The position numbers were made by a program, and so were the translations under genes. From Intoshia linei (taxonomy: Eukaryota > Orthonectida > Rhopaluridae), in contig LWCA01000489.1 of assembly GCA_001642005.1 (NCBI GenBank), positions 1 through 25,866 of the forward strand: 25,866 nt of DNA, in the 5' to 3' direction. The notes beneath the pieces were generated by a model. That model did not search any database, was not told the origin of the DNA, and saw nothing but the letters and a program-made list of their open reading frames with translations. Positions 3,997 to 25,866 of this stretch are shown one piece after another; position 1 is the stretch's first letter; every line of letters starts with the position of its first letter.

Positions 3997-4021
3997 CCCT
4001 AACGTATATACATGATAAATC

Positions 4022-6646: not shown

Positions 6647-6739
6647 ACGTGATTATGCTTCTTTATCATTTAATTGTCAGTGTTATGATAAACTTTGTTT
6701 ACAAAAGTATTTTTTACATTTAAAATTAAATCAAATTGA

Positions 6740-6898
6740 ATCAAATTTGTAAAAATTATTTACTAACAATTCTTACATTGCAAATTTCAATTGCAAAATT
6801 ATCTACTGTTTTGAATTTTTAGTAAATAAATTATCTACTAACGGTACAAATTAGCAAATTATTCACTAACCATTTTATACTAACGGTGCTTGACTGTA
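6740..6898. mobile_element. pogo-like right end with reiterated ACTAAC motifs
   Basis: The stretch ends CTAACGGTGCTTGACTG followed by TA (6897-6898). Several related blocks precede it (AAATTATCTACTAACGG, AAATTATTCACTAACC, AAAATTATCTACTG), a reiterated subterminal arrangement. The outer CAGTCAA matches the end at 2923. It could be the right terminus of that element or of an independent one. Confidence 0.5.
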
Positions 6899-7056
6899 TA
6901 TGTATTTTTTTTAGAATAAACTTTGCTACACTACTAATATAAACCTGATACTTTAGTATATTTAAAAATAAATTAAGTAAACATTTCAATTGAAATTATT
7001 ATAAACAAATTATAAAATGACAGTTTTAATATTATGGTTAATTAATGGTTTTGCAG

Positions 7057-7062
7057 TTTTAG
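7057..7062 (+). CDS. Candidate 6-nt microexon
   Basis: TTTTAG lies between a strong acceptor (GGTTTTGCAG, AG at 7055-7056) and a donor-like GTATTAG at 7063. The following intron to the 27-nt exon at 7112 would be 49 nt, close to other introns here. The length is a multiple of three and the sequence is open in phase 1. It rests only on the splice-site pattern. Confidence 0.3.
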   Translation, partial: F

Positions 7063-7111
7063 GTATTAGTTACATTTAATTCTTATTTTATAATACTAAA
7101 CAAATTTTTAG

Positions 7112-7138
7112 CTATTTCGCAAAATGGTACATTGTCAA
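7112..7138 (+). CDS. Candidate 27-nt phase 1-1 exon
   Basis: It is bounded by an acceptor (AAATTTTTAG, AG at 7110-7111) and a donor (GTAATA, GT at 7139). Read with two leading bases and one trailing base it encodes ISQNGTLS. That resembles TLQNDTLI in the two 60-nt exons at 10205 and 11335, and the intron phase is the same. It may be a shortened member of the same exon family. The match is only a few residues long. Confidence 0.4.
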
Positions 7139-7333
7139 GTAATACTTTAACCATGTTTTTTAGTTGATATTATAAACTTAATTATAACTATTTATTCCAA
7201 TGTCTTAATTACTCATTAATATAAAGCATTTAACCCATCACTATTCGCGATTGGATAAAAATGACGTATATTTATGAATGAAATTTGGCTTATACGATGA
7301 CTTAACAAATTGTAAATAAATTAATTTACGAGG

Positions 7334-9850
7334 AATGAAATCAGTGTTTCCCAATTGTGTGGTCAGGCCCCACTGGTGGGCATGACGAAATTTTTGGTGG
7401 GACATTGGAAATTTGGTGGGGTCTGGGAAATATTACAAATTTATAGGATTATGAAAAATTTAGATTAATTTATTGTTAATTTTATACAATATTCTCAGGT
7501 TTATAAATGGTTATGTGATACTTGAACCAATTAATTGCACTATTAGAATAATGACAAAAAACAAATATATCTTTAATGATCGTGGTGTATTGAATTCAAA
7601 TTTAACTAAATTGATGAGTATATGCAAAATGCCAAATTTGCAAAAAAATATTCGTATTCATTATCTTATTTAAATCAGTTAATTTAATTAATTAAAAATT
7701 AAATTTAGATTAAAATAATGAATCTACATTGAAATTTTACATTCATTTAGTTTTTGTGTTTTTAAGAAATATTAGTGCCACTTTAGACTAAAGTTTAGTA
7801 CAAAAATATGATAGCACTTAGGTATATATTTTTGTCTAAAAAAACTAAAAAAATTTTGCATTTTATTTTACATTATTTTCATTATATAGGTTAATATTAA
7901 TTCTTAATTTTTAAAACAAGGGTTTGTCAAGATTCAGATACCATACAAATACAAACGCCAACTATGGTTTATTATTGTTAATATTATTGATAAACGCTTA
8001 CATTTTTGTCTGTTATGTCAAAAAACATTATCCAATGATTCAATGAAACCAGGTCGTCTTCTATCTCATTTGGAAACGAAACATTCTAACAATGAAAATT
8101 CAATAGACTATTTTAAATCGTTGAAAGTAAAATTTTAAAATCAAAATAAAATTACATGTGCATTCGAAACTAAATCTACAAAAATTAATCACATGATTAT
8201 ATCTAGTTATGAAATTGCTCTATTGATATAAAAAATGGAAAGAGTCATACAATAGCTGAAAAATTAATAAAGCCTGCAATTTCATCATTTGTTAAAACTG
8301 TCCATCAATTAAATGGCAATGTTGTTGAACAAATGCTATTGAGTAACAACATCATCAGTAATAGAATTGATGATATGAGCAAGTGCATTGCAAAATAATT
8401 GATGGATAAATTAAAAACGAGAAAATTTTCATTACAAATGGATGAGTTAACTTTTCGTGACAGTGAAGCTCTTTTAATGGTTTATGTGAGATATATTGAC
8501 CAAGAACAATTCAAAGAAGAAATTTTATTTTGTAAATCTTCGGATACGATCAAAACCAACTTCAGGTGATATATTTAAGAAATTAAATGATTATTTGAAT
8601 GAAAAAATATACCAAAACATAACATAACTTCATGTTTAGCTGATGGAGTACCGGTTATGATGGGGAAAAAATGGTTGCTTGAAATTAATTAAAGATCAAA
8701 ATCTCAATATGTTGATTGTGCTTTGTATAATAATACATAGAGAAAATTTAATTGCCAAAAAGTTATGTCTCATTTTACATAGAATTCTTCATTCGATAAT
8801 AAATTGCATAAATTATATTAAAAAAAGTGCTAAATGTGAACGCCTTTTCAAAAAATTATGTATTGATAATAATGAAGAGCATGTGCGATTATTGTTACAC
8901 ACTGATATTAGCTGGCTATCCAAGGGAAATTGTTTAAAAAGGTTTATAAAATTGGTTTTATCAGTCAATTTTAGAAAATAAATCTGAATTAGACCTTATT
9001 CTGAGTATTCTGACTTATTCTGACTACTGATGGAAAAACATATGAGCTATTTAACTGATATATTTGAAAAATTAAATACATTGAATAAGAATCTACAAGG
9101 AAGAGATAAGATTCGTAGAATCAAAAAATCAAATATTTGGATTAATGTCACTATTAGATGTTTATATAGAAAATATTTCATCCAATAATTATTTATTAAT
9201 TAATCAATGAATTATTAATTTTTTTAAATTCATTTCTTTTGGTTAAATAAATCCCATGTTACAGAATTAGTAAAAAAATTATATTAAATCATTTAAAAAT
9301 AATGAAAAATGATTTTAATATGCGTTTTGAAGATATCAAACTTATGCATTTTCCATTGTGGTTGACACAACCTACTTTGGTGGACTTATTAAATGTATTT
9401 ATCAAATACCAAGAAGATTGTATATTAATGCATGATAAATCTTTACAAACTGTATTTAGCATCAAAGGTATTATTATATGGCTTACTGAAGAAGCCTTTA
9501 AAAATTATCCGACTTTTTCTAGGATTGCTTTGCCATTTCCATTCTCTTATTTAGCAGAATGCTGGTTTAGTGCAGTTATAGAGTTACTGACAAAAAAAAG
9601 AAATAGACTACAAATTTCAAAAAGTGGAGATCTACGATTAAAGATTATAACATTAGTACCTAATATTAATAAACTCTGTCAGAATCGTCAGGCTCAATCG
9701 TTTAATTAATTCTAAAAAATAAATACATTATTATTGTTTTTATCATTATTTTATTATAATTCGCTCGAATTTTTTTTCAGTGGGCATGAGATTTTTTAAG
9801 AGTAAAAGTGGGGCCTAGCATAAGAAAGGTTGGGAAACACTGAATGAAAT
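7334..9850 (+). mobile_element. Complete hAT element with decayed ZBED-type transposase
   Basis: The 2501-bp element (7342-9842) starts CAGTGTTTCCCAATTGTG and ends GGTTGGGAAACACTG. Both flanks are aatgaaat (7334-7341 and 9843-9850), a perfect 8-bp TSD. GGCCCCACTGGTGGGCATGA on the left is mirrored by TGGGCATGA and GGGGCCTA on the right. It carries a dead transposase gene. The clean TSD suggests the insertion is younger than the decay of its coding region, so it may have moved as a non-autonomous copy. Confidence 0.93.
7960..9709 (+). pseudogene. hAT transposase, ZBED5/SCAND3-like, inactivated
   Basis: Pieces appear in family order on the plus strand. A BED-like zinc finger has CLLCQK, SMKPGRLLSHLETKH and IDYF. 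The next block has SHTIAEKLIKPA, then SNNIISNRIDDMSK and a decayed MDELTFRD (a catalytic-core region). The HCIIHRE-type block is present as CIIIHRENLIAKKL, followed by EHVRLLLHTDISWLSKGNCL. The C-terminal dimerisation part is intact from 9302 to 9709, with AECWFSAV and RNRLQISKSGDLRLKI. Stops and frameshifts separate these blocks in at least four places, so no functional transposase can be made. Confidence 0.9.
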
Positions 9851-9866
9851 ATAATGCAATACCAGT

Positions 9867-9881
9867 GACATGAGTCATGTC
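9867..9881. repeat. Short palindrome
   Basis: GACATGAGTCATGTC is a perfect odd palindrome (7-bp arms, one central base) followed by another CATGACACG. It lies between the hAT element and module copy B, and loosely resembles the palindromic stretch near 15447 in the opposite orientation. It may belong to the same unnamed element. Confidence 0.45.
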
Positions 9882-9924
9882 ATGACACGTCTTCTTTATT
9901 AGATTTGTTTTGAACTACAGTAGT

Positions 9925-10016
9925 GTAGGTCAATTTTCAACGTGAATAGAAATAAAAATGTGGCCTCGGCAAAACTAGGTGCTGTTGGTACGTAGTACAT
10001 AACAGTCAACCTAGTA
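9925..10016 (-). repeat. TACTAG hairpin module, copy B
   Basis: Read on the minus strand this starts TACTAG and closely matches copy A at 1103-1205. The match covers the GTACTACGTAC core, AACAGCACCTAG, TGCCGAGG and the ATTCAC..TTGAAAAT block. Here the hairpin is longer: CTAGGT...CTGTT..GTAC pairs with GTAC.AACAG.ACCTAG around a TAC loop. Differences on one arm are partly matched on the other, as in a maintained hairpin, though the copies are few. Confidence 0.6.
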
Positions 10017-10104
10017 ATTTATATTATCTTTTAATGTAACTGTGGCACCATATGAATTTAAAAATTCAATTAAAAATTTAAGATAAATAATTAAATCTCT
10101 ACTT

Positions 10105-10160
10105 CAGGGGTGCACAACGTGCGGCCGTGAAAGCGTTTATGTCCGGCCATTAGGTCCATG
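10105..10160. mobile_element. hAT-like left end
   Basis: CAGGGGTGCACAACGTGCGGCC is typical of a hAT 5' terminus (compare CAGGGGTG..CAAC..GCGGCCC). No convincing partner is visible. The right end at 14816 has weakly similar flanks, but pairing them would put the exon array inside a transposon (see rejected items). Confidence 0.5.
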
Positions 10161-10204
10161 TATTGTATTTCCAATGAATCCATTATATTAAATTGTATTT
10201 GTAG

Positions 10205-10264
10205 GTACTTTACAAAATGATACATTAATAGACAAAATTGAAGAGAAGAGTGTTAATATGACTG
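10205..10264 (+). CDS. 60-nt phase 1-1 exon, copy 1
   Basis: The acceptor is TTGTATTTGTAG (AG at 10203-10204) and the donor GTAAAT starts at 10265. With two leading bases and one trailing base the 60 nt encode [19 protein letters not shown]. The exon at 11335-11394 has the same length, phase and core peptide. Many of the differences are synonymous or conservative (TTA/CTG Leu, ACA/ACT Thr, GAC/GAA), which suggests selection on protein. The product is unknown; the peptide is polar and acidic/basic, possibly helical. A 14-bp relic of a following small exon (10286-10299) is out of frame. Confidence 0.6.
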
Positions 10265-13200
10265 GTAAATTTATGGTTATCTGAGATGATTGATCTCTAG
10301 TAAATTACCCCTTTGAATAATATTCGTTATTTTAAAATGAGATTTGTTGTAAAATTTAAAACAGGCTATGTGGAATTGCATTGTATTTATTAAACCACAT
10401 GTCATTTTTGCACTAATGTATGCTTTTTAGGTACTTTAATGTATTAAGGCTAAATTACAGAAAAAATTAGAAGCCAATACATTTTAGATTGTTTACTTAA
10501 ATAATTAACTATTGCACAGGCTTTTGCGATTTTATAATTCATATTATCCATGAATTTTCAACGAGTTAAATAGTCTATTTTAATGTTTTAATGATTCTTA
10601 AACTTAAAAACTTATCACACTAATTTCACCCAAAATACTTCGCGGAACCCTTAAAAATTTTTAAATTAGAGATAACAGAAATACTTTCATAAGGAAAAAA
10701 ATATAAAAGCTCAATTTTACTGAAATATATATTTAGTAAAACACTTATTGCAAAAAGCTTTATTAGAATCGGTGCTACTTAACCTGTTTGTTCCAAAATG
10801 TATATTTATATTTTTTACATAGCTGGAAATAATTGACCTGGTTTACGGGGTACCAAATTTAAAAAAGATTCAAAACCCTGATTTAAGGTCTAAGGGTTAT
10901 AGTTTAGATCAGGGATTCCCAAAGTGGGCGATATCGCCCCCAGGGGGCGATTAATTCAGTTAGGGGCAATTATAAAAACACTGTATACTCAAAGATTGAT
11001 TTTAGATGGATAGAGTGAAGCGTTGATGAATTTTTTGGTTTTAAGGGGATATTTTTATAGCAAGTTTGGGATTCACTGATATAAAAAGTGACAGTAATAA
11101 ATATATTTTTTTTTAATTAACACAATTTTTTAATTATTACATGTTGAATAATGAGTTACTTTTTAAATATACATACGAGATAGTTGAAAAATTTTTTACG
11201 GGGGCGTTGAAAAAATATATTGTTAAAAAGGGGACGGTAGGCAAAATGAGTTTGGGAACCCCTGTTTAGATTAAAGTTGTAGAACATTCCAATTTTGTTG
11301 TATTTATTTTCATTAGATAATATACGTTTAGTAGGAACTCTGCAAAATGATACTTTAATAGAAAAAGTTGAGGAGAATATAGTTAAAAAGAAAAGTAAAT
11401 ATCTAATTTTTTATTTATATTATTTCTAATAGATGTGGATGTTGCTAGTAAATTATTGTACAATTTTTTATTTAAACTAAAATGTAGTTCATATAAAGGA
11501 TGTATAATTTTCCCTTTATTGGTTATTATGAAATGATAAATTTACTATCCTATGTATATGATAATAAATAGTTATTTCACATACAATTATAATAATAATT
11601 TTTTGTTAATGAAATGATTTTCCAAAAAAAAAGTGAATAATAGAATACTTTTTTGAACATCAAGGTTTAGTCTAACATTGAAACTTTTAATATATTTTAA
11701 TTCGAAAAAGCTGTATTAAATGTGATTTTTTTTTTAAATTCTGGGACTATTCGTTATTTCAATTTTTAAAAATAATGGGTAGTTTGTGGTTTTGACCGTG
11801 AAGACGTCATTTTGTGATATGATAATTTTTTGTATGTATTAACTGGAGATAACTATATGAACCGTAATTTTAATTTAATTTTTTAATTGTAAGACTATTT
11901 TCATTTTTAAAAAAAGGTAATTTGAGGTTTTGGCTCTGAATATTTTGTTATTATATATCTTTTTAAAATTTAATTTTAATGTATGAAAATGTTGATGATT
12001 TCAAAATTTGTATCAGAGTGTATATTTTATTAATTTCTACGACTCGTTTAATTACAAAAAAGGATACTTGAGGTTTTTGACCGGTAAGATGTAATTTGCT
12101 GAAATTTAAATTTGTCTTACTTTCTCCCCGGAAAAAACTGACCTGAACTTTGGGATTGTTAAAATTCTAGGTCACTTAGTTATTGAAATAAACGATAACA
12201 CACAATGACTGATTTACCGAAAAACAAAAATATTATACAAGTTTGGAATCCTTAAGATTAACATATATCAATACAATTTAACTAATTTGTCAGTCTATGA
12301 TATTATAACATAAATCTATACTTACCGTAACTAAATTTTTTCAATTTATATTTTCTCAAATAAAATTTATTTTAAAATATAAATTTTTTTCGTGGAACAC
12401 CAATCTTCTTCTCCCGTCACACAGTTTGGGAATTGCACTAAGCTATTTAATTTTTTTTAGGTTAGATATCAAAGATATTTAATTATTTTTATTCCATTTG
12501 TTGATATATATTTTGCAAAAAAATTGATTCTGGTCAGTTTTTTTTTCCTAAGGCTTGGTAAGACTTTTCTAGATAAGCGAATTTTTCTTTTGGGTTTGAT
12601 CTGTGATTACTTCTCGAAAGTTTGGTAAATTTTTATATTTCAATAGAAACTTGGTAAAAGTGAATTTTTCCTTCCGTCATGAAAAAAATTTATAAAATAT
12701 GACGAAATTCTTCACTTTTCCAGAAATAGCAAAATGACTGTAACATATATACAATATTATAATGCATAATAATCTTAGTCAGTAAAAAATTATAATTTAT
12801 TAATATGTTCATTTATATTATTTATTAACATTATTTATTATTATATTTGAATCTTAATAATAGTGGGTAAATTCATAAAACAAAATATAAAATTTCCAAT
12901 TTAAAAGTTATTAATATTAGTATTAATAATATAATATAAAATTTTAATTTACAGTATGTAAATAAAATTTAATTGATATTTTTAAAAATATATTATTAAT
13001 ACGACACTAATAACCAAATGAATTAATGATCAGTGATCACACCTAATTTCTTATAAAATGTGGTTTATCCGACCAGGTCCATCGTAAATAAGTAATAATA
13101 TTTTAAAGATTTTTTAATTTCAATATATTTTTATAAAGTTGTTTTTCTCATTTGTACATTAATAATTTTGTCATACAGCCATTGAAATTTTTTCAAAACA

Positions 13201-16200
13201 TTTTCAATATCTAAAACATTTAAAATATACAGATGGTAAATATTAAAAAAGTTTCATCAACTTTTTGATAATTTACAATCAATTAATCTAGATTGTAAGT
13301 TTTTAATATTCAAAAATCATTAAATTAATTATTAATGTACATAATAAATTTTAAATGAAAAATTACATCAAATTATAGGTGGTAAAATATGTTCATATAA
13401 TAATAAAAACAATAAATAGAAAAATAATAATTAATTTACATGTGTTAACTTAAATGTGTCAATTGTATTATGATTATAATTTATAACGCAATATTTATAC
13501 TGATTATAATTATATTTCATGTATATTTTTAAATATAGTTGGTAACAAAGATAATTTAAAATGATAAAATAACTTACAAAAGGTATTATTATTTATTATC
13601 ATTATGAATTATTAGCAAGTAAATTCTGTTTTTATTATCTGTTATTATAATATTATATTTTTAACATGTGTTATACAAAATATTTTATTATTTATTATTA
13701 ATTTAGCTTGTAATTATTGAAAACTATGATTTAACTTTTTATGTTTATAAATATGCCATAAATATTAAAGTATTTGAATGTTATATTGTGAAGTCTACAT
13801 ATTGAAATTATTTATACATTAAAATTTTAATTAGTTAGTAAAATTTTACATTATTATTGCATTACATAGAATTACAATATTTACAGAGATAGGTGAACAG
13901 TTTATCAGATGAACATCGCAGTGTCTTGGTAATAAAAACTATTATAATATAATAGTAGCGTCAATGTCTCAAAAATCTATACAATATGTTTTTACTAATT
14001 TCACTAATAACGGATCCATACAACATCCACGCAGATTCGATTACGATCAACCTTTTAAAGTCGCTGCATTATAATGCAGATAAATATAATTATTGATTCC
14101 ATTGTAATTTCAACAAGTTAAAAGGGGCGTGGAAGCTGATGTTGGAAAATAAAATAATTAATTACCATGGAATGATGAAAACAATCAAAAACATAATAAA
14201 TCTATCATTTCTTTGTTAACATCAGATGTCAATATAGTAATATGTAAATAGAAATGCATTTTAGTATTTATGAGTGAATATTGGTTATTTATAATATTGT
14301 ATAAAAAATAATACATAATATGTAGTTGGTAAATTTAATTTAAATACTTTTGTTTAATTTTATCATTTTTTGAGATAAAATGTATAAATTATTAATTGAA
14401 TGTATTAATACAAAAAATTATAATACAGTTTACATTATATCAGTGATTTAAACCGTTTTAATCTTACTTATGGATCAAATTTCACTGAATCAAACATTTT
14501 AAGAACACTTAACCAAAAAAAGTCTTTCAGAATATATAATGTACGCTTTACTACCTTTTCGTAGTCAGATCCCTAGTAACATCAATTTTCTAATGGTCGC
14601 ATAAAATTTTTGCATAAATTTTAAATAAAATGAAAAATTTCCAACGTTTAAATATAAAATGTATGTAGTTGCGCTTTATATTTCAATTCACATACTTTAC
14701 AATTGAGTATATGTGGATTAAATGGAAAATTAATGGTAAAGACTTTTTTTGTGCGGCCCGCGTAATAATTTTTTTTCACATTTGACGCGCCAAGCAAATT
14801 GACTTTGACACACCTGCTCTAGAATTTTTTTTTTAATCACTATCGTACATATAAACTAATTTTTTACTAATTACGAGATAATTTATAACGTTTTTTATCT
14901 AATTTTTAATAAACATTCAATTAGATGGCGTTTATTAGAAATTATTACTATCAGTGGCGAAAAATAATGTGGACCCAGGAGTCCATATGGACGCGTTGAT
15001 AATGTTTTGTGTATATTTAATTGTTATGTATTCAAAAACTCACGATATCAAGAAATATTACTATTTAATGGTTTTTATTTAAAAAAATTAAATTCAGTAA
15101 ACAAGTGTGTTACTATGGGGAAAATTCCATATTATAGGAATTAGGGAATTTTCGATTCTGTAAATAAGGGCGGAGTAACAATTTTTTTATTAGAAAACAC
15201 ACCAGAAAATAATTTTTGAATATAATCTCAAAATGAACACTCTACAATTTGTTTGGTTGCCAACATTGCTAAAACTGCTGCAATTTTTACGTTGGGAATC
15301 CTGGGTCTATGTCAATGATGGCATAACTTTTCAGTTGGTGTGTAAAAAAAAATTTTTGTTGTTTTCGTTTATAGTTGCTTAGCACTTCTAAATGATAAAT
15401 AATTTTTGGTATGTATTTAACAGCGTGTCAGGCAGAATGCCTGTGTATGTCACTAGTGACATGCGTGTCATATTTTTGCATCATTGATCTATGTTAGAGT
15501 TAAATTATAGTTTAATTATTTGCAGTGAGTAAATTTACTTATTTTTAAATAGCAGTAGTAGTATACACTATACCAGCCAGGTCAAACTTACGGCCCGTAG
15601 GCCGCATAAGGCCCTTTTCAATTTTAAGTGCGGTCAGCCACGACTTCGTATATGTATATATAATATATTATTAATACTAATAATAATATTAATATATATG
15701 ATATAATATAGATATTATTAAATATTCCATAATGAATTGTTTATCATCATTTGCACACCTAAGCTGCGAGAAGATATATTTAATGATATTAATGATACGA
15801 TTAAAATCATGTTTATTAATTAATGATAATTCACAATAAATTCTAAATTTTTAAAAATACGTGCAAGTCATATCAAATCAAAATTCTAGTTTTATCATTC
15901 GAACATTAATTTAAAAAATGAATCTTGCACAATGAATACAAAACCACCCAAAAAAATATTTCACTTCTAATTTCCAGGATAAAATTATCACAAAATAATG
16001 AAGAAAAAAGAACTCACCAAGTTTACTCCGTAATTGACGACGATAATCTCGATTATCCTTTGAATAATATTAGCACAACTGACCGAACAATTTTTCACAA
16101 ATTAAAAAAACCATGGCCGCTCGAACTAAACACATATTCGATTTCGATTATCTGATTTGAGATCACTTTCAATACATACTGTGTATTTGAAAAAAATATT

Positions 16201-19200
16201 ATATAAAAAATTTTATGATGCGGCCCGCCACATATTTGAGTTTGATATGGGTGCATTATACAGTTTTACATGACTCATTGTATCTAACTTTTATTTTTAA
16301 TATTCAATTTATTTATAAAGGTATTTATAAAATTTTTAGTCGGTTAGTTGTTCCTATTGAAAATCAATATATAATTATAAAAATTTTTAAGACATAGTTC
16401 ATTGTAAAAATTTAATACATTTTAATATACAATAGTTAGTAAATATTAATATATTTATAACGTCGTCAATTAGGTGGGTAATGAGGAAATTGAGATATAT
16501 GATTTCTAGAAAATATTAGTAATGTTTAATTCATAAATAAATATGAAAATTGTTCAATGAAATATAAAAATTTTTATATTTGATCGTAATATTAAAAGTG
16601 TTGAGTCCATTTCAAAACTAGGTTGTAACGAAAAATGTTTTTAACGTGGAAATTCTTGTATGAAATTAAATAGTTTCTAAACTAAAGTACCGTTTTGTTT
16701 CATACAGTGAAACACCCTAATGCAGATCGAAGTCACCGAAAATAAAAAATAGGCCAATAAAAAAATATATACAAATGAAACGTAGTGTCGTATAGCCTTA
16801 AAAATAAATGAATTTAAATACATAATAATACAATAAATTAACCCTTAGCCACCTAATGCTCTTGATTTTACATTTTGAATTTAACGCACAAAATAATTAT
16901 GATTTTCAAGACTATAATTTTTTAATGCTCAATTTGAAGAATGATGCCTCCATTCCACAAAAATCTTGTCGAGGACACCAATACGGGTCTCATGTTACAG
17001 TGAGTTCGGCGCTTCCCTATTGTCGGTATGAATTTAATATATAATTTATTGCCTTAGTGAAATTTTATATTTGTACTAGGTTCACCGGGAATGCGTAGAT
17101 TTCTGAAGTTGAAATTTTGTATTTATATCAATTGGAATAATCTCTATCAGAATAATCTTTTTTTTAATTTTCGGACCGTTTAATTATTTCAGATTTTTGG
17201 TTTTAATAAAATATTTCGGAAAAAAAATAAATGAATACTATAATGGTTTTTTGACCGTGAAGTCGTCACTTATTCTTATGATTGAAATTTTTTGTGTGTG
17301 TTAACAGGATACAACTGTACCACATGTAAATTTTTTTATATTCTAAGGCTGTTTTTATAAAAAAAAGGGTAATTTGTGGTTTTGGCCCCGAACATATAAT
17401 TTTTTTTAATTTAAATTTATGACAATGTTTATGATTTTAAAATCCGTATCAGCGTAGTTATAATTTAAATTCTCCAACTTGTTTGATTTTCAAAAAAAAG
17501 GACAATTGGAGTTTTTGACCCGTAAGATGTGAGTTTGAGAGGTTGAAATTTATCTTATTATATGTCCCGGAAAAAACTGTAATTGAAATGTGGACTTTAT
17601 AAAATTCTAAAACTGGTAGTTATTTCAATAAACGATAACACAAACAAATATTGCATAGTATATTATAATATGCTATGATTATATAAGTACACACAAACAA
17701 ATATTGCGTAACATATTATATAAATAAAGATGTATTAAAATTACCCACCTAAAAATTGTGAAATTGAACCATGAAATAAGTAGATTGGAAATCCTGTTTT
17801 GGGATACTCTCAATACAATTTTTAAATAATTATATTCGAATAATATTAATAATTTTATATGTATTAATGATGTATAATCTCATTATAATTAGTCGGTATT
17901 TAAAAATATAGTCATATTTAATTTTTTCATTTACATGGTAATTTTAATCTGATTCATTTTTTTATAGTGTGTAAATTATATCATACATTATTTTACATGT
18001 TGTAAAATGAAAAATACACAAAATTACATTACATTACGTTATCGGTGTATCGATGTGAATAAACGAATCTTTCTTATCTGTATTTATGATTTATTATTTA
18101 ATTAATTAAATATACTAATTACTAGTAATACATAATAATAAAGTGTTACATTAATCATGTTAAGTTAGTTATAAACATGTACTGTTTTGATATTATTTAA
18201 ATTTAGCTGGTAGTTAATTGAAAAAATAATAGTTTTAAATTATTTATTTCGCATATTTTTTAAATTAATATGTTAATAAATCAATTATAGTTATTCATAT
18301 AAAAAGTATCAATTTAGCATGTAAAAATTTTGTATTTGGAATATAAATATATAAATAATAATAATAACAAATTTGCATTACTTTTAGTAATTCGTTGTGT
18401 TTTAATTTAAATTTTAAACAAAATTTTTTGAAAATGAGTATTTGAGATTGAAAAATTGCGAAGGAATGAATTATATAGATTTTCACCCATATTTCTTTAT
18501 TATAAATGTGTAGACGTTCAATGCAATTTTTTTTAAAATTGTAGGATCAATATTTACATTTTCAATTTTTATTTTAATCGAAATATTTGAAAAATATTGG
18601 TTGATAATATATGAAAAATTATTTTTAACCGGGAATGCGTAGATTTCTAAAGTTGAAATTGTGTATTTATATCAATTGGAATAATCTCTATGAGAATAAT
18701 TTTTTTTTTAATTTTCGGTGATTAATTATTTCATATTTTTTGTTTTAATAAAATATTTCGAAAAAAAAATATGAATACTAAAATTCTTTCTTGACTGTGA
18801 AGGCGTCACTTATTCAGATTGAAATTTTTTTAATATGTTAAAAGGATAAAACTGTACAACCTATAAATTTTATTAAATTCTAGAGCTGTTTTTATTAAAA
18901 AAAAAGGTAATTTGTGGTTTTGGTCCTGAAGATATATTTTGTTTAAATTTAAATTTATAATAATATTTATGATTTTAAAATCCGTATCAGAGTATATATT
19001 TTTTTAAATTTTCCAACTCATTTGATATTCAAAAAAAGGACAATTGGGCTTTTTGACCCATAAAATGTGAGTTTGAGAGGTTGAAATGTGTAACACACCC
19101 GGAAAATACTGTAATTGAAATGTGGACTTTATAAAATTCTAAGACTGGTAGTTATTGAAATAAACGATAACACAAACAAATATTGCATAGTATATTATAA

Positions 19201-22200
19201 TATGCTATGATTATATAAGTACATACAGCCAAACAAATATTGCAAAGCATTTTATGTAAGTAAGGATTATACAATTTACTATTGTTCCATTTTCATGTAG
19301 CATTTCAAGTTCAATGTTTCATTTAAAAAAATATTTTAAATAGTTAGTAATATATATTATATATAAAATAATTATATATATAATATTGTATAGAATAATT
19401 TAACCAAATTATTATTAATATTAATAATACTAATTTAGTGTTTAGCAATTTTATGAAACTATAAATAAATACATCATTAGAAAGTAAATTTTATATTTTA
19501 ACCACAGTCGCTTATTTACATTGTTGTATACGATATATAATTAAAATAGATAAAATCTAATTTAATTTAACATGTTAAAAAAACAGCTTGTAAATTTTAT
19601 AATTTTATGAAAGTATAAATAAATGACAATAATAGTAAAATGTACAATTTGATAACATTATAATGATATGTTAACAATTTCATTTTAATTAATTTTTAAA
19701 AAATTTATTGTATATCGTGTTTCACTTGACATAAATATTTATATTAAAAATTCATACTTTTTTATTTAAGATATCGTATTATTAAGATAAGTTATTAAGA
19801 TAACAATGAATATTACTTTCTTGTATTTATTTATAAAATTATATGTTTCTCTATTGCATCTTGAAATTTCGACCTGACCAGATAGAGTTATTACACAATT
19901 CGAATCATAAGAGTATCAGCTACAAAATGATATGTACTAGAAAAGTCTATATTTAAATTTATGATATAAAACATTAAAGTTGGTAATTTTTGTATTTAAA
20001 TGTATTATATTGATTATAATAATTACATAATTTTAATGAAGATGTTATTAAAAATATTAACACATTACATAACATTATAGCCGGTAAAATTAAACATAAA
20101 TATTTAAAGAGTCTTCATATCTTTTATTTCTAAAATTATAAAATTAAAAATTTCATTAGACAGTAAAATATTAATTTTTAATTTTTTTATCAAAATTTGT
20201 ACATTTCTATATATATCTTATATTCTATAATCTATTTATATATATAATAAATAAATCATGGTTAAGTTGGTACGTCTTTTTATTTTTAAATTATTTAATT
20301 TTTAAAATTTTAATTATTATTTTTCTAAATTAGGATGTAATTTATATAAATATTTATTTAATTATATACACCAGTGATTCAAACTGTTTTCCGTAAAAAG
20401 AAGGTTGGTGTGGAGCGAAAAAATATAGTGTGATAAATATACATTCGTGTATATTACATTTACATTTGTATATAACTTATATGTTTATATTAGCGTATAT
20501 AAATATTGATCACGCTATTTAAAATTTGTACTTTTGATTAAAAATTGGAAATATATCATTTTTTCATATAAATTTTTTTAAAACCATTTAAAAGGTGTGC
20601 CATAAAAAAAAAGTTTGAGAATCACTGGTATACACTATAACCCAATTAGTGTTGACTGAGTATGATCAGCCATGTTACCATAATACATTTTAATGAACAT
20701 CTACTGAATTGTTCATTATAATCTGTGGTTACACTGTATTTAGCTTATTTTACTAAATATAGCGTACTATTACTAATAATAATTCTAATAAAATAAATCT
20801 TTACAAGGCCGTAAATATTTAATTTTTTGTAATTTTGACATACAGGTTCATCACTTAGTGACGTTCAATTCAAGTATCATGTGAGTCTTAGTCACATCAG
20901 TAGAATAACCTTGAAAAGTTAACAATGACCATAGAACAATATAAAAATATCCATTATTAACATTTTTGTTAAATGATAATCAGGGATTGGAAATGATTAA
21001 TTCCAATTAATTATGTTGTATAAGCCATTTCATTGTTTGCTAAATATTAATTTTTGAATTAATTGATTTTTTTGCAATTTATTGAAAAATGAAAAGATAA
21101 TTTTCAATGAATTGGTTTTTTCATATAACTGAAAAAATATAAATTGAATCCTTTTATTGACGAATGGTTGGATGAAAAAATTAATTTAATTTTTTTATGT
21201 AGTTCAAAAATTAAATTAATAATAATATATATTAAGGTGTCAAGTTGAAACTGTCAACACTCGTTGTAGCGTATCGCAGTCCCATCATGCTTTATTTATT
21301 TCCAGAAAAAATTTTATTTCCAAATTCGAAAAAAGAAATAAAATAAATAATATGAAAATATTTTTTAACAACTATTTTGCGAATAAAATAGTTTGACATT
21401 GTATAATAAAATATTAAAAACTTTTCATTATTCTATGGAAATTTAAAAAAAAAAAAATGCGTTAGTCACCAGAAAAATGATTTATTTAACTTAATAGCTT
21501 GAATGTTATGTACTTCGAACAAACAGCATCCTAATATATTCATTATAACCACACGACAGTTGTTTAAAAATGATTATGATATGGTTATCAATCTTCAATT
21601 AATTGAAATTTTTTGTATATTTTAAAAAACCAATTTATGGCAATTATTTCATATAAATCAATTAATTGAAAAATATTTTTGAAGTACAAATTACTTCTGC
21701 AAATAAAATAATGAAATAGTAATATAATTATGAGCGGTCTTTTTATACATATATTAAATTTGTTTATATATAATATACACCCTACCACCCAACGAAGAAT
21801 GTCAATAATTTCAATTTGTACCAAAACAAAAGTTTCCATTTTTTAAAAAAACCCCGGGCAAAGCCATTAAATTTTTGAACATTTTATTACTCATACATAT
21901 AATAATAAAATAATATTTATTAATTTTTTGAAAATTATTATTGATTAAACCATCTTTTTTTAATTTATTTTAATATTAAGACTATACGTTATAGTATAAA
22001 ACTTAGATATAATAAATTTAATTGTTGATGACTCTACATTTCTACTCATAAGATTAACAACCCAACAACTAATTTTATAGCCCGCGCATACTGATAGTAT
22101 ATAAACAAATTTCTGGATTATAATAGCATGAATACAACGAGACAACAAGAAATGATGAAGAATTGAACCAATTAATGAAGCATATTACGATCAGCCAAGG

Positions 22201-25200
22201 CGTTGTATTGCCTCACATCAATTCAACTTTGATTCCCAAGAAGGCCAAGGCTACTGGCAGTACCTAAGCAAATTATAGACTATTGTAGATATTGTACATT
22301 AGAAAAATTACATAAATAGGATATTTTTAAAATTATATACGCACCAATAAAGGATTTTTTTAAAATTTACATTGTATTTAAAGTCTTGGCTTTTTTGTCA
22401 ATTTGAGAAAATTTGTTATTTATATTAATGGCTTTTCGACTTATTTAACTCGCCTCTACTCGAAATTCCAATCCCTGGTGATTATATTAAAAAATTGAGG
22501 TACATTGATCAGTTTCTATTAAATTTACGAGTTTATAATGTACATTTATTGATGGTATTAGATTAGTAAAATAATTGTGATGACTTTTTAGAAGGTAATT
22601 AATTTAACTATTTGTTTAATAGTCTGTAAGTAAGGTTATACAAGTGATTAAAGTCTTGTAAATTATACATGTAGTAAAATGTCTTTTCAAGATTTTGTTA
22701 ACAAATTATTAAAATTTGACTCACTTAAACAGTCTATTACTTTAGTCACTTCTACTGGACGTCATAAAAATAAAATTAAATTTTTATATTAGTGGGTTTG
22801 TTTATTAACATAAAATAAAATATTTTAAATAATTCTGAAATTTGGATTTACAAAGTTAATCATTATGATTAGGACGTAAATTAAAATTGATCAAGATTAA
22901 TATTATTAATTTAATAATATTAAAATATTAATTGTTATAATGTGTACACCAGGGATCGACAACCAAAGGCCCACAAAATAATTTTGTTGACCCTTTGAGT
23001 AATAATATAAATTATTTATTTTTAAATGTTTCAATTTTTAATACTTTTCTACCATAATTGGCTGATTTTAATCATTTTGACTCTGAATTTTCACATCGTC
23101 CTGGAAAATATTTTGTTAAATTTACTAGAACCGTTTCTCTACAGTTAAAATATAAATTTATCATGTGTAAATTTTTAAAACGGGACCTGTATAATTTTTG
23201 AAGAAAAAAAATCAACTCACGAGACGCAAAAGGTTTCCGCTCCTAATATACATGTATCGTAATAATGAATAACATTTTGTTTAGTAAGTAATTTTATTAA
23301 TCATTTTTATAATTTATGATTGAATGTATTCACAATTCAATTGTAAATTTTGTATTATGTATTATTATAAATATCATAACACATTTTATGACAATATTAC
23401 ATATCCGTTGCCGAATGAGCCAACCATCAAAATTAATCTATGCTGATTAGCACTATTTTTGAAATTACTTAACCTAACAATTGTATAAAAGTTTACACCG
23501 ATTTGGATTAGATTTGCACAGGCTTTAATAGCATATTTAAATATATTTCAGAGAAAAAATTAAAATTGAATATTAATTAAATTTAATAATTTTAGTATGT
23601 AAAATTTTTTATGTGATTATTTTATTTACATTATTAATTACCAATTAATAATAATGTAAATAATAGTATATAAATGTATGTAAAATAAATATTCCAATTT
23701 TAATAGTATGTAATTATGCTTTTATTTATCTCATACAACATATATCGTGACTTGATTTTTACAATGTACCATACATACGTTAATTAGAATTTCATATATC
23801 CTTTAATCTAAAGAAAATCCTAATTTTTTTTAAAATTGATGTTGATTATTAAAATTGCTGAAATATCGAAATTTCTCAAATTGATTCAATGGGAGATATA
23901 CATGTAAATAGGTTCATGATGATCAGGCCCGTCATATTAACTTAACCCCTTTCCAAGACCCTGCTCAAAATAATTTTAATAAAACCGATCTAACACTATT
24001 CATAAATATATATTTTAGTGAGTAAATACTATTATTATTACAATTATTTTTTTTCTTAAATTTATAATTCTATAATTTTTATAATATATAATTAATAAAT
24101 ATGATACATAAAAATCTATTAAACATAATTCTTAGTGCGTAACATTACATAAAACCATTTATTAAATATTTTTTTTAATATTTAAATATTACAATTAAAA
24201 ATATAATTATAATATTTTAATACAATAGCTTGTAATTAAAATTATTAGATATAATTTATAAATTGATAACATCTAATAAATCGACTATATTGAAATTTAA
24301 ATTGTTAAAAATAGTGTGTAAATTGAATTGTAGAATTGTATAAAATCAACATAGATCAGTATTTCTTAGTCATGGCTCACGACTAACGAGTAAACGAACC
24401 CAATCAGCCTGAATTTACTCAATTAATTTTAAAAAGAAATTTATTTTAGCTTGGTTTTTTGTGAGTAAATTGAATATTAAAATTTAAGTGATTGTATTCA
24501 TAAATTTTTCTTTTTAACGGGTTTAAAATGATTTTCATCTTTAATTTATTAATTAACATTTCGAATTAAACATTACAAAATTACACCAAATACTATACAA
24601 ATCGTTATTTAAAACTAGTTGATTATGTGCCTTGAGTCTAGAGTCTAGACTCATAAATTAAAAAATAACACATACATTTATTTGGTACTTTTTACAATTT
24701 GTATTTAGTGGGTTAATTAATTGTTATTTAAATATAAATTGTAAATTATATGTATCATACCTGTCCAATATCAGGTACCTCGACGAGAAATGCCAGATTT
24801 GCGACTTTACACACGACTTATACCTTTAAAATTCAAATCTACCACACTACAATAAATTGAGACAGATTTTATAAAACCTACATTTTATTTTAAGTTATTT
24901 CAGTTGATGATAAAAATTGTAAAAAAATTAATTTAAAATCTTAAATCAAAATTTCTTTAAATGACATATAAAGTAAATGTGAATTCTTTAAATATATTTT
25001 TAAATAAGGTATAGATTCCTGCATTATATCCATTTTTAAACCATTTAAATTACATGTAGATTTAAATTTTAAACGAAAGTAAACATATGTAATTAATTAA
25101 TATAAACGTTTCTAAAGTCGGTATTTTTTAAAAAAATTTTAAAAAAATTACAAATATATTAATTAAATTTTAATTAAAAATTTTTTATCATTCCTTTATA

Positions 25201-25838
25201 TATAAAGTTAGTAAAATTATTTTAATTTATCAACAGTAATATATTAGTTTCAAATTATTTTACTTACAAATAATTGTAATTATTATTGTAAATATAGACG
25301 GTATATATTCCAACACTATATAAACTAATATAAATAAAAGTAACATTTACTTTTTTCACAAGACCCAATTTACCAAACCTGAAAATCAAAAATAAAACCC
25401 TCAAAAATTTTTAAAAAATTGAGCCATTTTAAAAAAATTATGTCGATCCCTCGAGTACAGTATATTTGGTGCTGTTTCCCATTTAAGAGTTTATAATTGC
25501 TTCATCATATAAATTAAAAAATAAAAGTGTTTACAAATATCTATAAATTAATCGACGATTGTGTTTGTATATGTTATAGTTCATAAATTTTATTTTACAA
25601 ATTTAGTAGGTAAAGATATATTACAATAAATTAATTACAATCGCTAGAACAAATTATTTCTAATTATTGTCAAAGTATTTTAACCACCCAGTTTTTATAT
25701 TTCTTTTATATTTTCTTAACTTGTGATCCAGCGATAGTCATATCATATTTAATATTGTTGAAATATGAATAGTGTGTAAATCAATATATTATATTAATCA
25801 TAAAAATATTTTAATAATTAATAAAAATAAAAAAGATG
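10205..25838 (+). CDS. Putative giant gene with a train of 3-nt microexons (model)
   Basis: The model links two 60-nt exons, one 15-nt exon and 42 candidate 3-nt exons, all on the plus strand. What is seen: AG-NNN-GTAA occurs 38 times after 12.7 kb, against none that I found before it, with 4 further sites using GTAT, GTAG, GTTT or GTTA. Other spacings between AG and GTAA are rare in the same DNA. The larger exons demand phase-1 introns. In that phase the 41 codons formed by joining the triplets have no stop and begin M-V-Y-D. Phase 0 has four stops (TGA, TAA, TGA, TAG as whole exons) and phase 2 has three. The product would be hydrophobic. The gene would continue past the right edge. About 3-4 of the sites may be chance, and exons with atypical sites may be missing. 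The function is unknown. Confidence 0.5.
10850..10880. mobile_element. Solitary hAT-like right end
   Basis: GGGGTACCAAATTT, then AAAAAAGATTCAAAACCCTG, ends at 10880 like a hAT terminus (inverted CAGGGTTTTGAATC). The upstream block ACTTCGCGGAACCC near 10640 is a common subterminal motif of such elements. No left end with matching flank is visible. Confidence 0.4.
10902..11271. mobile_element. hAT MITE with gtttagat TSD
   Basis: The 354-bp element (10910-11263) starts CAGGGATTCCCAAAGTGGGCG and ends TTTGGGAACCCCT. The flanks 10902-10909 and 11264-11271 are both gtttagat. The terminal G of the right end is shared with the TSD, so the edge is ambiguous by one base. GGGCGATATCGCCC sits just inside the left end as a palindrome. 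It lies in the intron between the two 60-nt exons. Confidence 0.88.
11335..11394 (+). CDS. 60-nt phase 1-1 exon, copy 2
   Basis: The acceptor is CGTTTAGTAG (AG at 11333-11334) and the donor GTAAAT starts at 11395. The frame, with two leading bases and one trailing base, reads [19 protein letters not shown]. It is homologous to the exon at 10205-10264 but lies about 1.1 kb away, so an exon (or exon pair) has been duplicated within the gene. The next exon begins after a 38-nt intron. Confidence 0.62.
11433..11447 (+). CDS. 15-nt phase 1-1 microexon
   Basis: ATGTGGATGTTGCTA lies between ATTTCTAATAG and GTAAATT. Joined to the final A of the 60-nt exon it reads Asn-Val-Asp-Val-Ala and leaves one base, keeping phase 1. 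A degraded counterpart follows the first 60-nt exon (10286-10299, one base short, with a 21-nt gap), so the duplicated unit contained both exons. The 38-nt intron is very short. Confidence 0.5.
11640..12440. repeat. hAT-like relic with degenerate ~130-bp units, copy 2
   Basis: The same family as 1244-2600. Here the units starting TTTTGACCGTGAAGACGTCA, TTTTGGCTCTGAA and TTTTTGACCGGTAAGATGT are recognisable. The right end survives as CACACAGTTTGGGAATTGCACTA, matching in reverse the CAGTGGTTCCCAAA type of hAT end. It is non-coding and lies in the interval between the 15-nt exon and the first 3-nt microexon. Confidence 0.6.
12656..12719. repeat. Imperfect hairpin
   Basis: AAAAGTGAA...CGTCAT (12656-12680) and ATGACG...TTCACTTTT (12699-12719) are inverted arms with a short mismatched middle and an 18-nt loop. 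Upstream, CTTGGTAA recurs at three places between 12550 and 12660. It may be the remains of a small foldback element. Confidence 0.45.
12779..12957 (+). CDS. 3-nt microexon candidates 1-3
   Basis: Triplets: TCA 12779-12781, TGG 12864-12866, TAT 12955-12957. Each follows TTAG, ATAG or ACAG and precedes GTAAAA or GTAAAT. The introns are 82 and 88 nt and do not resemble each other beyond their ends. In phase 1, the A of the first and TG of the second form ATG. Confidence 0.55.
13233..13837 (+). CDS. 3-nt microexon candidates 4-10 (densest cluster)
   Basis: Triplets: ATG 13233-13235, ATT 13292-13294, GTG 13379-13381, TTG 13539-13541, CAA 13616-13618, CTT 13707-13709, TTA 13835-13837. Introns are 56, 84, 157, 74, 88 and 125 nt. 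The 56-nt intron equals the one found at 5985-6040. All donors are GTAA; one is GTAAGT. The first six concatenate to ATGATTGTGTTGCAACTT, a diagnostic string for transcript reads. Confidence 0.58.
13895..14074 (+). pseudogene. Coding-like remnant of unknown origin
   Basis: Two open pieces stand out from the A/T background. From about 13899 a frame reads [11 protein letters not shown] and ends at CTTG before GTAATA. At 13964-14074 an ATG opens 36 codons including [20 protein letters not shown] and FKVAAL. I recognise no family. They could be fragments of a transposon or host exons; the splice phases do not fit the phase-1 pattern of the surrounding array. Confidence 0.35.
14238..14328 (+). CDS. 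Candidate 6-nt exon and 3-nt microexon 11
   Basis: TTG at 14326-14328 lies between TGTAG and GTAAATTT and fits the array pattern. TAATAT at 14238-14243, between AATATAG and GTAAATAG, could be a 6-nt exon that keeps phase 1 (ATA-ATA-T). The 6-nt call is weaker because it depends on one site pair only. Between 13837 and 14238 I see only the coding-like remnant. Confidence 0.4.
14441..14816. mobile_element. Two hAT-like ends, not clearly one element
   Basis: CAGTGATTTAAACCG at 14441 resembles the left end of the MITE at 20372. The sequence GCGGCCCGCG, CATTTGACGCGCC, AAGCAAATTGACTTTGACACACCTG ends at 14816 as a right terminus of another hAT type (inverted CAGGTGTGTCAAAG). The two inverted repeats do not match each other, so two truncated insertions are likely. 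Confidence 0.45.
14952..15328. mobile_element. Inverted-repeat element, probable old hAT MITE
   Basis: CAGTGGCG at 14952 leads into TGGACCCAGGAGTCC (14970-14984). The reverse complement of GGAATCCTGGGTCTA (15295-15309) matches it at 13 of 15 bases, and the outer parts also correspond roughly (GTGGCG against ATGCCA). No duplication of flanks is visible. There is no coding capacity. Confidence 0.4.
15447..15462. repeat. Perfect 16-bp palindrome
   Basis: ATGTCACTAGTGACAT is self-complementary. GGCAGAATGCC, a small hairpin, lies just upstream, and a second GTGTCA follows. The arrangement loosely resembles the palindromic DNA at 9867-9890 in inverted orientation, so it may mark an unnamed repeat family. 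Confidence 0.5.
15526..15528 (+). CDS. 3-nt microexon candidate 12
   Basis: TGA lies between a good acceptor (TTAATTATTTGCAG) and GTAAATTT. As a whole codon it would be a stop, so it can be coding only if the introns are not phase 0; in phase 1 it contributes to codons around it without a stop. It sits between two transposon insertions. Confidence 0.45.
   Translation, partial: 
15566..16261. mobile_element. hAT element of 680 bp
   Basis: The element (15574-16253) starts CAGCCAGGTCAAACTTACGG and ends TTGAGTTTGATATGGGTG. GGCCCG blocks lie near both ends. The flanks cactatac (15566-15573) and cattatac (16254-16261) match at 7 of 8 bases. A 76-codon frame without an ATG start at 15925-16155 (with [17 protein letters not shown]) could be a transposase remnant, but I cannot assign it to a transposase domain. 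Confidence 0.8.
16436..16624 (+). CDS. 3-nt microexon candidates 13-14
   Basis: TTA at 16436-16438 (AATAG / GTAAAT) fits well. GTT at 16622-16624 (ACTAG / GTAACG) lacks a T-rich acceptor and may be chance. A near-miss at 16474-16477 has four bases (TTAG-GTGG-GTAATG) and would break the frame. From 16640 to 16850 I see nothing else. Confidence 0.4.
16856..17044 (+). CDS. Hypothetical 62-codon open frame
   Basis: An ATG at 16856 opens a frame whose second half ([20 protein letters not shown], then ALPYC) is richer in G/C than the surroundings and looks coding. A possible donor, GTTACA followed by GTGAGT, lies inside it. It directly follows TTAACCCTTAGCCACC, which resembles a piggyBac-type end, so it might be part of a transposon. 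I do not recognise the protein, and its reading frame on the other strand is also partly open. Confidence 0.3.
   Translation: MLLILHFEFNAQNNYDFQDYNFLMLNLKNDASIPQKSCRGHQYGSHVTVSSALPYCRYEFNI
17083..17720. repeat. Relic with ~130-bp units, copy 3
   Basis: It is the cleanest copy of the family at 1244-2600. Successive units begin CACCGGGAATGCGTAG, TTGACCGTGAAGTCGTCA, TTGGCCCCGAACATA and TTGACCCGTAAGATGTGAG. It ends with AACGATAACACAAACAAATA and a second CAAACAAATATTGC about 60 bp later. The same duplicated tail is in copy 4, so copies 3 and 4 are more closely related to each other than to 1 and 2. Confidence 0.65.
17893..18320 (+). CDS. 3-nt microexon candidates 15-18
   Basis: Triplets: TCG 17893-17895 (donor GTAT), TGT 17968-17970, CTG 18207-18209 (donor GTAG), CAT 18318-18320. 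Acceptors are TTAG or ATAG; the second follows a good T-rich tract. Spacing from exon to exon is 75, 239 and 111 nt. They occupy the DNA between repeat copies 3 and 4. Confidence 0.48.
18440..19262. repeat. Relic with ~130-bp units, copy 4
   Basis: It shares with copy 1 an upstream part (GAATGAATTATATAGATTTT, CACCCATAT) that copy 3 lacks, and with copy 3 the duplicated CAAACAAATATTGC tail. The internal units start AACCGGGAATGCGTAG, TTGACTGTGAAGGCGTCA, TTGGTCCTGAAGATA and TTGACCCATAAAATGTGAG. It is non-coding. Confidence 0.65.
19344..20336 (+). CDS. 3-nt microexon candidates 19-25
   Basis: Triplets: TTA 19344-19346, AAA 19481-19483, CTT 19587-19589, TTG 19980-19982, CCG 20081-20083, ACA 20160-20162, GAT 20334-20336. 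All donors are GTAA. The interval 19589-19980 lacks a site of this type; it contains TAAAAT before GTACAA at 19636, a possible 6-nt exon, and at 19919 a decayed LQND-like stretch (CTACAAAATGAT) resembling the 60-nt exons. This cluster is free of recognised transposons. Confidence 0.55.
20364..20635. mobile_element. hAT MITE
   Basis: The 256-bp element (20372-20627) starts CAGTGATTCAAACTG and ends AAGTTTGAGAATCACTG. The flanks atatacac (20364-20371) and gtatacac (20628-20635) match at 7 of 8. It has no coding capacity. Its left end is related to the isolated end at 14441. Confidence 0.88.
20808..20810 (+). CDS. 3-nt microexon candidate 26 (weak)
   Basis: GCC lies between TTTACAAG and GTAAATATT. 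There is no T-rich acceptor tract directly upstream, so this may be one of the few expected by chance. It sits in the 340-bp gap between two hAT insertions. Confidence 0.3.
21491..21533 (+). repeat. TACTAG hairpin module, copy C (degraded)
   Basis: AATAGCTTG, TGTTATGTACTTCGAAC and AAACAGCATCCTA match copies A and B in order, with several substitutions that weaken the hairpin. Only the first 40 bp or so is preserved. Confidence 0.45.
22148..22267 (+). pseudogene. Histone H2A C-terminal fragment
   Basis: A frame of 39 codons and a stop begins [20 protein letters not shown] and continues [19 protein letters not shown]. It matches the end of histone H2A, from the RNDEELN helix through the TI.QG.VLP.I docking-domain core to the PKK tail. 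The N-terminal three quarters, including the acidic patch and histone fold start, are absent, and no related sequence is found upstream. G/C is clearly higher than in the surroundings. There is no histone 3' stem-loop after the stop. It may come from a canonical or a variant H2A; the few residues do not decide it. Confidence 0.85.
22592..22875 (+). CDS. 3-nt microexon candidates 27-30
   Basis: Triplets: AAG 22592-22594, TCT 22623-22625 (donor GTAAGTAAGG), TGG 22793-22795 (donor GTTT), GAC 22873-22875. Acceptors are TTTTTAG, ATAG, TTAG and TTAG. The gap between the first two is only 28 nt, probably too short to splice, so one of them may not be used. Near-misses with four bases occur at 22563 and 22655. 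Confidence 0.45.
22942..23253. mobile_element. Old hAT MITE
   Basis: The 296-bp element (22950-23245) starts CAGGGATCGACAACCAAAGG and ends GCAAAAGGTTTCCGCTCCTA, a decayed inverted repeat. The flanks gtgtacac and atatacat match at 5 of 8, and the three differences are all transitions. There is no coding capacity. Confidence 0.6.
23285..24317 (+). CDS. 3-nt microexon candidates 31-37
   Basis: Triplets: TAA 23285-23287, TAT 23596-23598, TAT 23707-23709, TGA 24019-24021, TGC 24136-24138, CTT 24229-24231, TGT 24315-24317. All donors are GTAA and all acceptors TTAG or ATAG. The last four are 117, 93 and 86 nt apart. TAA and TGA as entire exons rule out phase-0 reading here. Between 23300 and 23590 and between 23720 and 24000 I see no other feature. 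Confidence 0.55.
24709..25838 (+). CDS. 3-nt microexon candidates 38-42
   Basis: Triplets: TGG 24709-24711 (donor GTTA), TTA 25208-25210, TAG 25607-25609 (donor GTAAAG), TGT 25773-25775, ATG 25836-25838. The last lacks a T-rich acceptor. The array shows no sign of ending at the window edge. GTGAGTAAATT at 24461, preceded by a T-run but no AG, may be a mutated site. The rest of 24320-25866 is plain A/T-rich DNA. Confidence 0.45.
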
Positions 25839-25866
25839 GTAATTTTCATATATCAATATTTTATAT

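Follow-up and report, generated by a model that had tools for sequence, protein, structure and literature searches.

A train of putative 3-nt microexons in one phase on a contig of the orthonectid Intoshia linei

Introduction

Can a gene be read through dozens of exons of three nucleotides (nt) each, and how would splicing find such exons? The question is raised by contig C171 (LWCA01000489.1) of Intoshia linei, which in its whole length of 25,866 base pairs (bp) is the window analyzed here. An earlier note on this DNA described, from the letters alone, a long series of sites at which an AG acceptor and a GTAA donor enclose exactly three bases, and read them as a train of 3-nt microexons. Single exons of 1–4 nt, though unusual, are on record, and they sit uneasily with a model in which the exon is recognized across its own length. 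A train of triplets would strain the current view of how splicing finds exons.

From the counts and frame analyses below, we consider it very likely that the + strand of the window carries a protein-coding gene reaching from about 7017 to past the contig end, composed of a start exon, three small exons and about 40 exons of 3 nt, with all introns in phase 1.

Results

On the + strand of the window, AG-NNN-GTAA occurs 38 times in 12751–25866 and not once in 1–12750, while the − strand has five such sites in the first half and two in the second. Other distances between AG and GTAA (AG-Nk-GTAA, k from 0 to 30) yield 0 to 6 + strand sites per half, and in the second half k = 2 and k = 5 give none and k = 4 gives three. 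Simulated sequences of the second half (200 order-1 and 200 order-3 Markov sequences) contained on average 2.7 and 3.3 sites at k = 3, respectively, and never more than 9. The stricter form with a pyrimidine before the acceptor AG (YAG) accounts for 34 of the 38 sites, with simulated means of 1.3 (order-1) and 1.8 (order-3) and a maximum of 6. The earlier note had given 38 sites past 12.7 kb and none before, rare other spacings and a chance level of 3–4, all of which the exact counts and simulations bear out; its example triplets at 13233–13709 are correct as well. Over k = 0–30, only k = 3 in the second half of the + strand stands out.

For the analyses of reading frame and splice context, the window was pooled with 17 other stretches of the assembly, which were picked by a k = 3 pattern, giving 18 stretches on 14 contigs and 74,838 bp in total. 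Frame coherence across the joined triplets is the strongest support for serial 3-nt microexons. When the triplets were joined in order within each stretch and read in phase 1, neighbour joins gave 2 stops in 210 codons, compared with a mean of 10.5 when triplet order was shuffled within stretches (10,000 permutations, P = 0.0003). The other two frames of the joined triplets contained 15 stops in 228 codons and 16 in 210. These counts kept all rows, including those on C86, C924 and C1012, where some triples may be chance. Split by gap, the phase-1 neighbours showed 1 stop in 108 at 40–129 nt and 1 in 100 at longer gaps, two gaps below 40 nt falling in neither class. Each codon would consist of the last base of one triplet and the first two of the next (a 1|2 split); as every intron would be in phase 1, each 3-nt exon would add one residue while the frame is kept.

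Upstream of the train, four putative exons can be placed on the + strand. Putative exon 1 (7017–7062) holds a start codon and the signal-peptide-like MTVLILWLINGFAVL, ends in G and is followed by the donor GTATTA. Positions 1–12780 of the + strand hold one other hydrophobic start-exon candidate, two in all, and three lie on the − strand of the entire window. Putative exon 2 (7112–7138; 27 nt, phase 1-1, ISQNGTLS) has the donor GTAATA, and its acceptor TTTTAG was picked by eye within the stretch 7070–7138. Putative exons 3 (10205–10264) and 4 (11335–11394, with alternative acceptors at 11317 and 11332) are both 60 nt long, in phase 1-1 and 19 residues in length, and they are paralogous, with 78% DNA identity over 73 bp and 76% protein identity over 17 residues. 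Joined, exons 1–4 and the first 11 triplets give 75 residues without a stop, in the same frame and phase. NxT is a glycosylation motif, and its occurrences in this joined peptide would fit a glycosylated secreted product. The likely start of the window gene is near 7017, and its first phase-1 exons are larger than the triplets that come after. A comparable start was seen on C86, where a first triplet comes 48 nt after the signal-peptide-like start exon MANVCFFLWLIFLIYSKA and further triplets come after it, and this is a possible second example of the layout.

Alternatively, the window might hold two genes, one made up of exons 1–4 (7017–11394) and a separate microexon gene beginning at an ATG split between 12781 and 12864. 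The first junction of the train does read A|TG, and hydrophobic residues come next. However, the hydrophobicity after A|TG is not significant, and exon 4 is followed by a good donor (GTAAAT), from which the first YAG-NNN-GTAA reached along the + strand is the opening triplet of the train, in the same frame. We therefore regard two genes as unlikely and favour a single gene from 7017 onwards. The split A|TG at 12781/12864 was also considered as a signal-peptide start in its own right; permutation did not support it, and the start exon at 7017 is preferred.

If the triplets were instead freely skipped cassette exons, one gene could give rise to very many peptide variants. Exons that are all 3 nt long and in phase 1 lend themselves to this, since any subset stays in frame, and schistosome microexon genes (MEGs) do produce variants through exon skipping. 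Yet joins that leave out triplets carry stops at the permuted rate, with 9 in 192 codons from i to i+2, 8 in 174 to i+3 and 11 in 157 to i+4, compared with 9.5, 8.5 and 7.6 expected. Among the joins tested, selection is seen only on those of direct neighbours, so it looks as if the triplets are kept, follow one another in the reading and are for the most part not skipped. Free skipping thus seems to us distinctly improbable, although triplets may occasionally be skipped.

The sites also have the surroundings of splice sites, on one strand. In the pooled stretches, sense AG-Nk-GTAA was found 228 times at k = 3, whereas all other k of 0–120 had a mean of 18.4 and a maximum of 32, and the antisense count at k = 3 was 12. 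The YAG form occurred 204 times in sense and twice in antisense, and eight times on each strand in 96,778 bp drawn from 11 loci on other contigs. With the selecting sites removed (72 of 190 in the non-window stretches), 118 sense and 10 antisense sites remain. Of 223 sites, 89% have a pyrimidine and 1% have G at position −1, and the AG dinucleotide drops from 2.5% at −70 to −50 to 0.5% at −16 to −1 (199 sites), an about five-fold depletion that resembles an AG-exclusion zone. G+C in the triplets is 29–36% depending on position, above that of the flanks. Triplets end in G at 16 of 24 sites with a GTAT donor, but only at 55 of 204 with GTAA (Fisher P = 0.0002), and this final base appears to contribute to the donor, like position −1 in U1 pairing. 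Gaps between sites have a median of 116 nt, 75 of 210 being 50–90 nt; the shorter ones are comparable to the median intron of I. linei, given as 57 bp in the part of the source drawn on here (PMC6543705). A branch-site motif was sought upstream of the sites, and weak 4- and 5-mer differences only were found.

These counts also bear on recursive splicing, in which ratchet points would remove one long intron stepwise and leave nothing in the mRNA. Serial acceptor–donor pairs used in order within a long AT-rich stretch would look alike under both readings, and abutting sites (k = 0, AG|GT) are slightly raised in the pooled stretches, with 25 in sense and 12 in antisense. However, ratchet points recreate a donor exactly at the junction, with an exon of zero length, while the window sites do not abut and k = 3 alone is strongly enriched. 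Each step would leave three variable bases in the mRNA, and stop avoidance between neighbours needs triplets that are kept and read. We give ratchet points very little credence compared with retained microexons. That the sites are unspliced remnants of a tandem repeat or introner array, with AG-NNN-GTAA carried by its units through mere chance, is hardly credible: spacing is regular in places and repeat copies lie between sites, but self-blastn of the window (E up to 1e-8) found no repeated unit around the sites, only long repeats and the exon 3/4 pair, and an array would leave the AG-exclusion zone and the frame coherence unexplained.

Longer exon classes inside the trains were considered and rejected, as no k of 4–120 is prominent against the mean given above. 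Open phase-1 exons divisible by three are more frequent in sense than in antisense at 6–29 nt (82 and 48), 30–59 nt (50 and 18) and 60–99 nt (32 and 10), an excess owed partly to cysteine-rich exons on C86. At k = 15, open YAG-GTAA exons number 14 in sense and 4 in antisense. A minority of longer exons within trains is possible.

Trains were also sought in the whole assembly (34.65 Mb, 1319 contigs). Pairs of YAG-Nk-GTAA at a gap of 45–75 nt numbered 129 at k = 3, 30 at k = 4 and 31 at k = 6, with reversed-pattern controls of 54, 109 and 63, respectively; the k = 3 pairs thus exceed their own control 2.4-fold. At a gap of 76–106 there were 133 pairs at k = 3 and 54 in the control. Three AG-NNN-GTAA in a row with gaps of 55–85 were found 26 times on the forward and 3 times on the reverse strand (control 1 and 2), and in a second gap range 19 and 4 times (control 1 and 1). 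The k = 4 version of the triple pattern occurred 0 times forward and 6 times reverse (control 3 and 4), and four of these six resemble one repeat family by eye. By hand count among the matches listed (200 of 262 pairs, plus the triples of C1046), at least three pairs lie on each of 18 contigs, namely C171, C205, C219, C238, C329, C347, C351, C443, C488, C520, C527, C535, C559, C615, C872, C896, C897 and C1046. The pairs of C535, as much as 50 kb from one another, may have arisen by chance, and those of C559 span 1789–11526 of a 12,426-bp contig. With similar trains on about 18 contigs, the putative window gene belongs to a wider class. In the same hand count of listed pairs, 14 of the 18 contigs carry their train on the forward and 4 on the reverse strand, perhaps by chance.

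Several observations weigh against a spliced triplet train. The genome-wide count that the earlier note had proposed did not show enrichment when the motif was counted singly, YAG-Nk-GTAA occurring 7314 times at k = 3, 7326 at k = 4 and 7467 at k = 6 over both strands; since the single-site count is flat genome-wide, trains are local. The control for k = 3 pairs is itself higher than the k = 4 and k = 6 pair counts. Under stricter site rules the frame signal is weaker, with 3 stops in 186 neighbour codons for YAG sites only (permuted 9.8, P = 0.002) and 3 in 212 under another rule (permuted 9.2, P = 0.005). In the window, one in-frame stop is left at the join 22623 to 22873 of the GTAA chain, and one at the join 20334 to 22592 when YAG sites, some of them with weak donors, are chained instead. 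Dropping one member of the pair 22592/22623 by hand clears each stop, a choice that hinges on uncertain neighbours; as either stop vanishes without one of them, at most one of the two is likely used. Gaps in the train are as long as 1.78 kb, which suggests that exons were missed or have been lost, or that DNA has been inserted. The last site lies 28 bases from the contig end, so the 3′ end of the gene is off the contig. Exons 1–4 were chosen partly by eye in an AT-rich region. The 17 other stretches have 19 hydrophobic start-exon candidates in sense and 7 in antisense, and as the antisense strand yields them too, single candidates prove little. The hydrophobicity of the train's own peptide is not above that of permuted order (P = 0.16 and 0.39). 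Finally, the predicted peptides had no protein match at E up to 10; the predicted protein likewise had no match at all, in a search too weak to tell whether it is distantly related to MEG proteins.

Discussion

Our results support the serial 3-nt microexons proposed in the earlier note, through splice context on one strand, the AG-exclusion zone, intron-sized spacing, stop avoidance restricted to neighbours and G before weak donors. Other parts of that proposal need correction: no triplet is in itself a codon, the likely gene start is at 7017 and not in the train, and the locus belongs to a class and is not a single case.

We infer that the RNA is spliced through the triplets. Recognition by exon definition is implausible, because 3 nt cannot seat U2AF/U2 at the acceptor and U1 at the donor together. 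The AT-rich introns would probably be defined one after the other instead, with every join completing the donor needed for the following step, and the triplet itself would supply U1 positions −3 to −1. Because the train consists of 3-nt exons that share a phase, adding or removing an intron together with its triplet would lengthen or shorten the protein by a single residue and keep the frame. Such unit gain or loss could explain how trains grow, although no repeated unit is visible now. By analogy with the microexon genes of other host-dwelling animals, the product would be secreted and possibly acts at the host interface. Going beyond the window, we find it somewhat probable that I. linei has a gene class on about 18 contigs whose members probably code for secreted proteins, have mostly one codon per exon and always phase 1, and can grow and shrink by single residues through intron-plus-codon units. 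Reading such genes would require dozens of 3-nt exons to be spliced in strict order by intron definition.

The closest likenesses in gene layout are the bicycle and megacycle genes (PMC9168663) and the KQY/KHI genes (PMC7495047) of aphids, which, in the sections of these papers drawn on here, likewise have serial tiny internal exons in one phase. Nearly all internal exons of bicycle genes begin at codon position 2, and many of the products have N-terminal signal sequences (PMC9168663, PMC7495047); the same exon start, a hallmark of bicycle genes, is found in the I. linei trains and in putative exons 2–4. The aphid genes and the window gene also have in common one protein spread over tens of kb in a host-dwelling animal. 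Megacycle genes are described with more than 100 microexons, that of M. sacchari having 2092 residues and 118 exons (Stern and Han 2022, PMC9168663). However, aphid exons are larger, with 37 exons of 6–416 bp in KQY1a and an average of about 17 exons in bicycle genes (PMC7495047, PMC9168663). The bicycle family is known from aphids, phylloxerans and scale insects, and no relation of these to orthonectids, the source of the window, is known; the two are likened by gene layout alone.

Schistosome MEGs share serial short exons that are mostly multiples of three, as well as secreted products, and are likewise found in a parasitic spiralian. The accessible text on them gives exons of 6–81 bp (3–81 in the abstract), mostly of 15 and 10–20 per gene (PMC10526429). 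Putative exons 2–4 (27, 60 and 60 nt) are within that size range, whereas the train has about 40 exons of 3 nt, and k = 15 is not prominent in trains (AG-N15-GTAA 26 sense, 10 antisense). As in microexon genes in the broad sense, the window has many tiny exons in one direction which fall into one frame and phase on joining. Isolated tiny exons are described from Drosophila homothorax (PMC7392893), exons of 1 or 3 nt from plant APC11 and VPS55 (PMC8831610), and two 3-nt exons from the fungal lipS gene (PMC5639578). These cases show that the spliceosome can include such exons, but in the portions of the sources cited there are only one or two per gene, not dozens. Dozens of serial 3-nt exons were not found in the open-licence literature, judged largely on titles and abstract openings, nor was any paper there that deals with Intoshia together with microexons; wording aimed at 3-nt exons led there to a single paper, on the fungal gene with two of them. 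I. linei belongs to Orthonectida, described as simplified worm-like parasites in a paper that does not use the words intron, exon and splice (PMC12249979).

If some 40 serial 3-nt exons are truly used, and further loci of this kind exist in so simplified an animal, one could test whether exon recognition can be dispensed with altogether, what governs the order and accuracy of splicing, and how a protein evolves in which every residue has its own exon. Genes of this kind probably escape the usual aligners and gene finders, and the secreted proteins of orthonectids, perhaps also those of other parasites, may therefore be under-annotated. Together with the same-phase tiny-exon genes of aphids and the MEGs of schistosomes, the trains raise the question of why host-dwelling animals repeatedly reach this structure.

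Sites of the train and neighbouring features

The train extends over 12779–25838 of the + strand and is made up of the 38 AG-NNN-GTAA sites and 7 YAG-NNG sites with other GT donors, some of the weak-donor triplets having been admitted by eye or by rule. In order from its start, the microexons with YAG acceptor and GTAA donor are TCA (12779–12781), TGG (12864–12866), TAT (12955–12957), ATG (13233–13235), ATT (13292–13294), GTG (13379–13381), TTG (13539–13541), CAA (13616–13618), CTT (13707–13709), TTA (13835–13837), TTG (14326–14328), TGA (15526–15528), TTA (16436–16438) and GTT (16622–16624). They continue with TGT (17968–17970), CAT (18318–18320), TTA (19344–19346), AAA (19481–19483), CTT (19587–19589), CCG (20081–20083), ACA (20160–20162) and GAT (20334–20336). 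AAG (22592–22594) lies 28 nt ahead of TCT (22623–22625), to which it is an alternative, joint use being unlikely. The remaining members are GAC (22873–22875), TAA (23285–23287), TAT (23596–23598), TAT (23707–23709), TGA (24019–24021), TGC (24136–24138), CTT (24229–24231), TGT (24315–24317), TAG (25607–25609) and TGT (25773–25775).

The other four of the 38 GTAA sites are uncertain microexons with an AAG acceptor, namely TTG (19980–19982), GCC (20808–20810), TTA (25208–25210) and ATG (25836–25838), the last before the contig end. Among the weak-donor sites, TCG (17893–17895) and ACG (25298–25300), both with GTAT, are probable microexons. Possible ones are TCG (16340–16342) and TGG (24709–24711) with GTTA, CTG (18207–18209) with GTAG, TGG (22793–22795) with GTTT and TTG (15335–15337) with GTGT, which is uncertain.

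One repeat has copies at 17081–17744, 18625–19279, 1792–2600 and 11790–12202, with 70–86% identity among the pairs listed, and its copies at 17081–17744 and 18625–19279 sit in two of the train's four longest gaps. Between exons 2 and 3, broken + strand reading frames occupy 8000–9770, which by eye we take to resemble a hAT-type transposase; this was not confirmed by Pfam, which gave no match on 8661–8981 and 9251–9709. The end of these frames (9466–9772) has a relative at 4022–4337, with 74% identity over 331 bp. On C86, the − strand at 23599–26743 holds cysteine-rich open phase-1 stretches with CxxC repeats upstream of the triplets, perhaps exons of a separate gene. Ahead of exon 1 in the window, an apparent multi-exon gene with boundaries set by eye lies at 5093–6646, and its segment 5723–6040 bears a weak likeness to Alg9-like mannosyltransferases (PF03901, E 1e-4, below cut-off).

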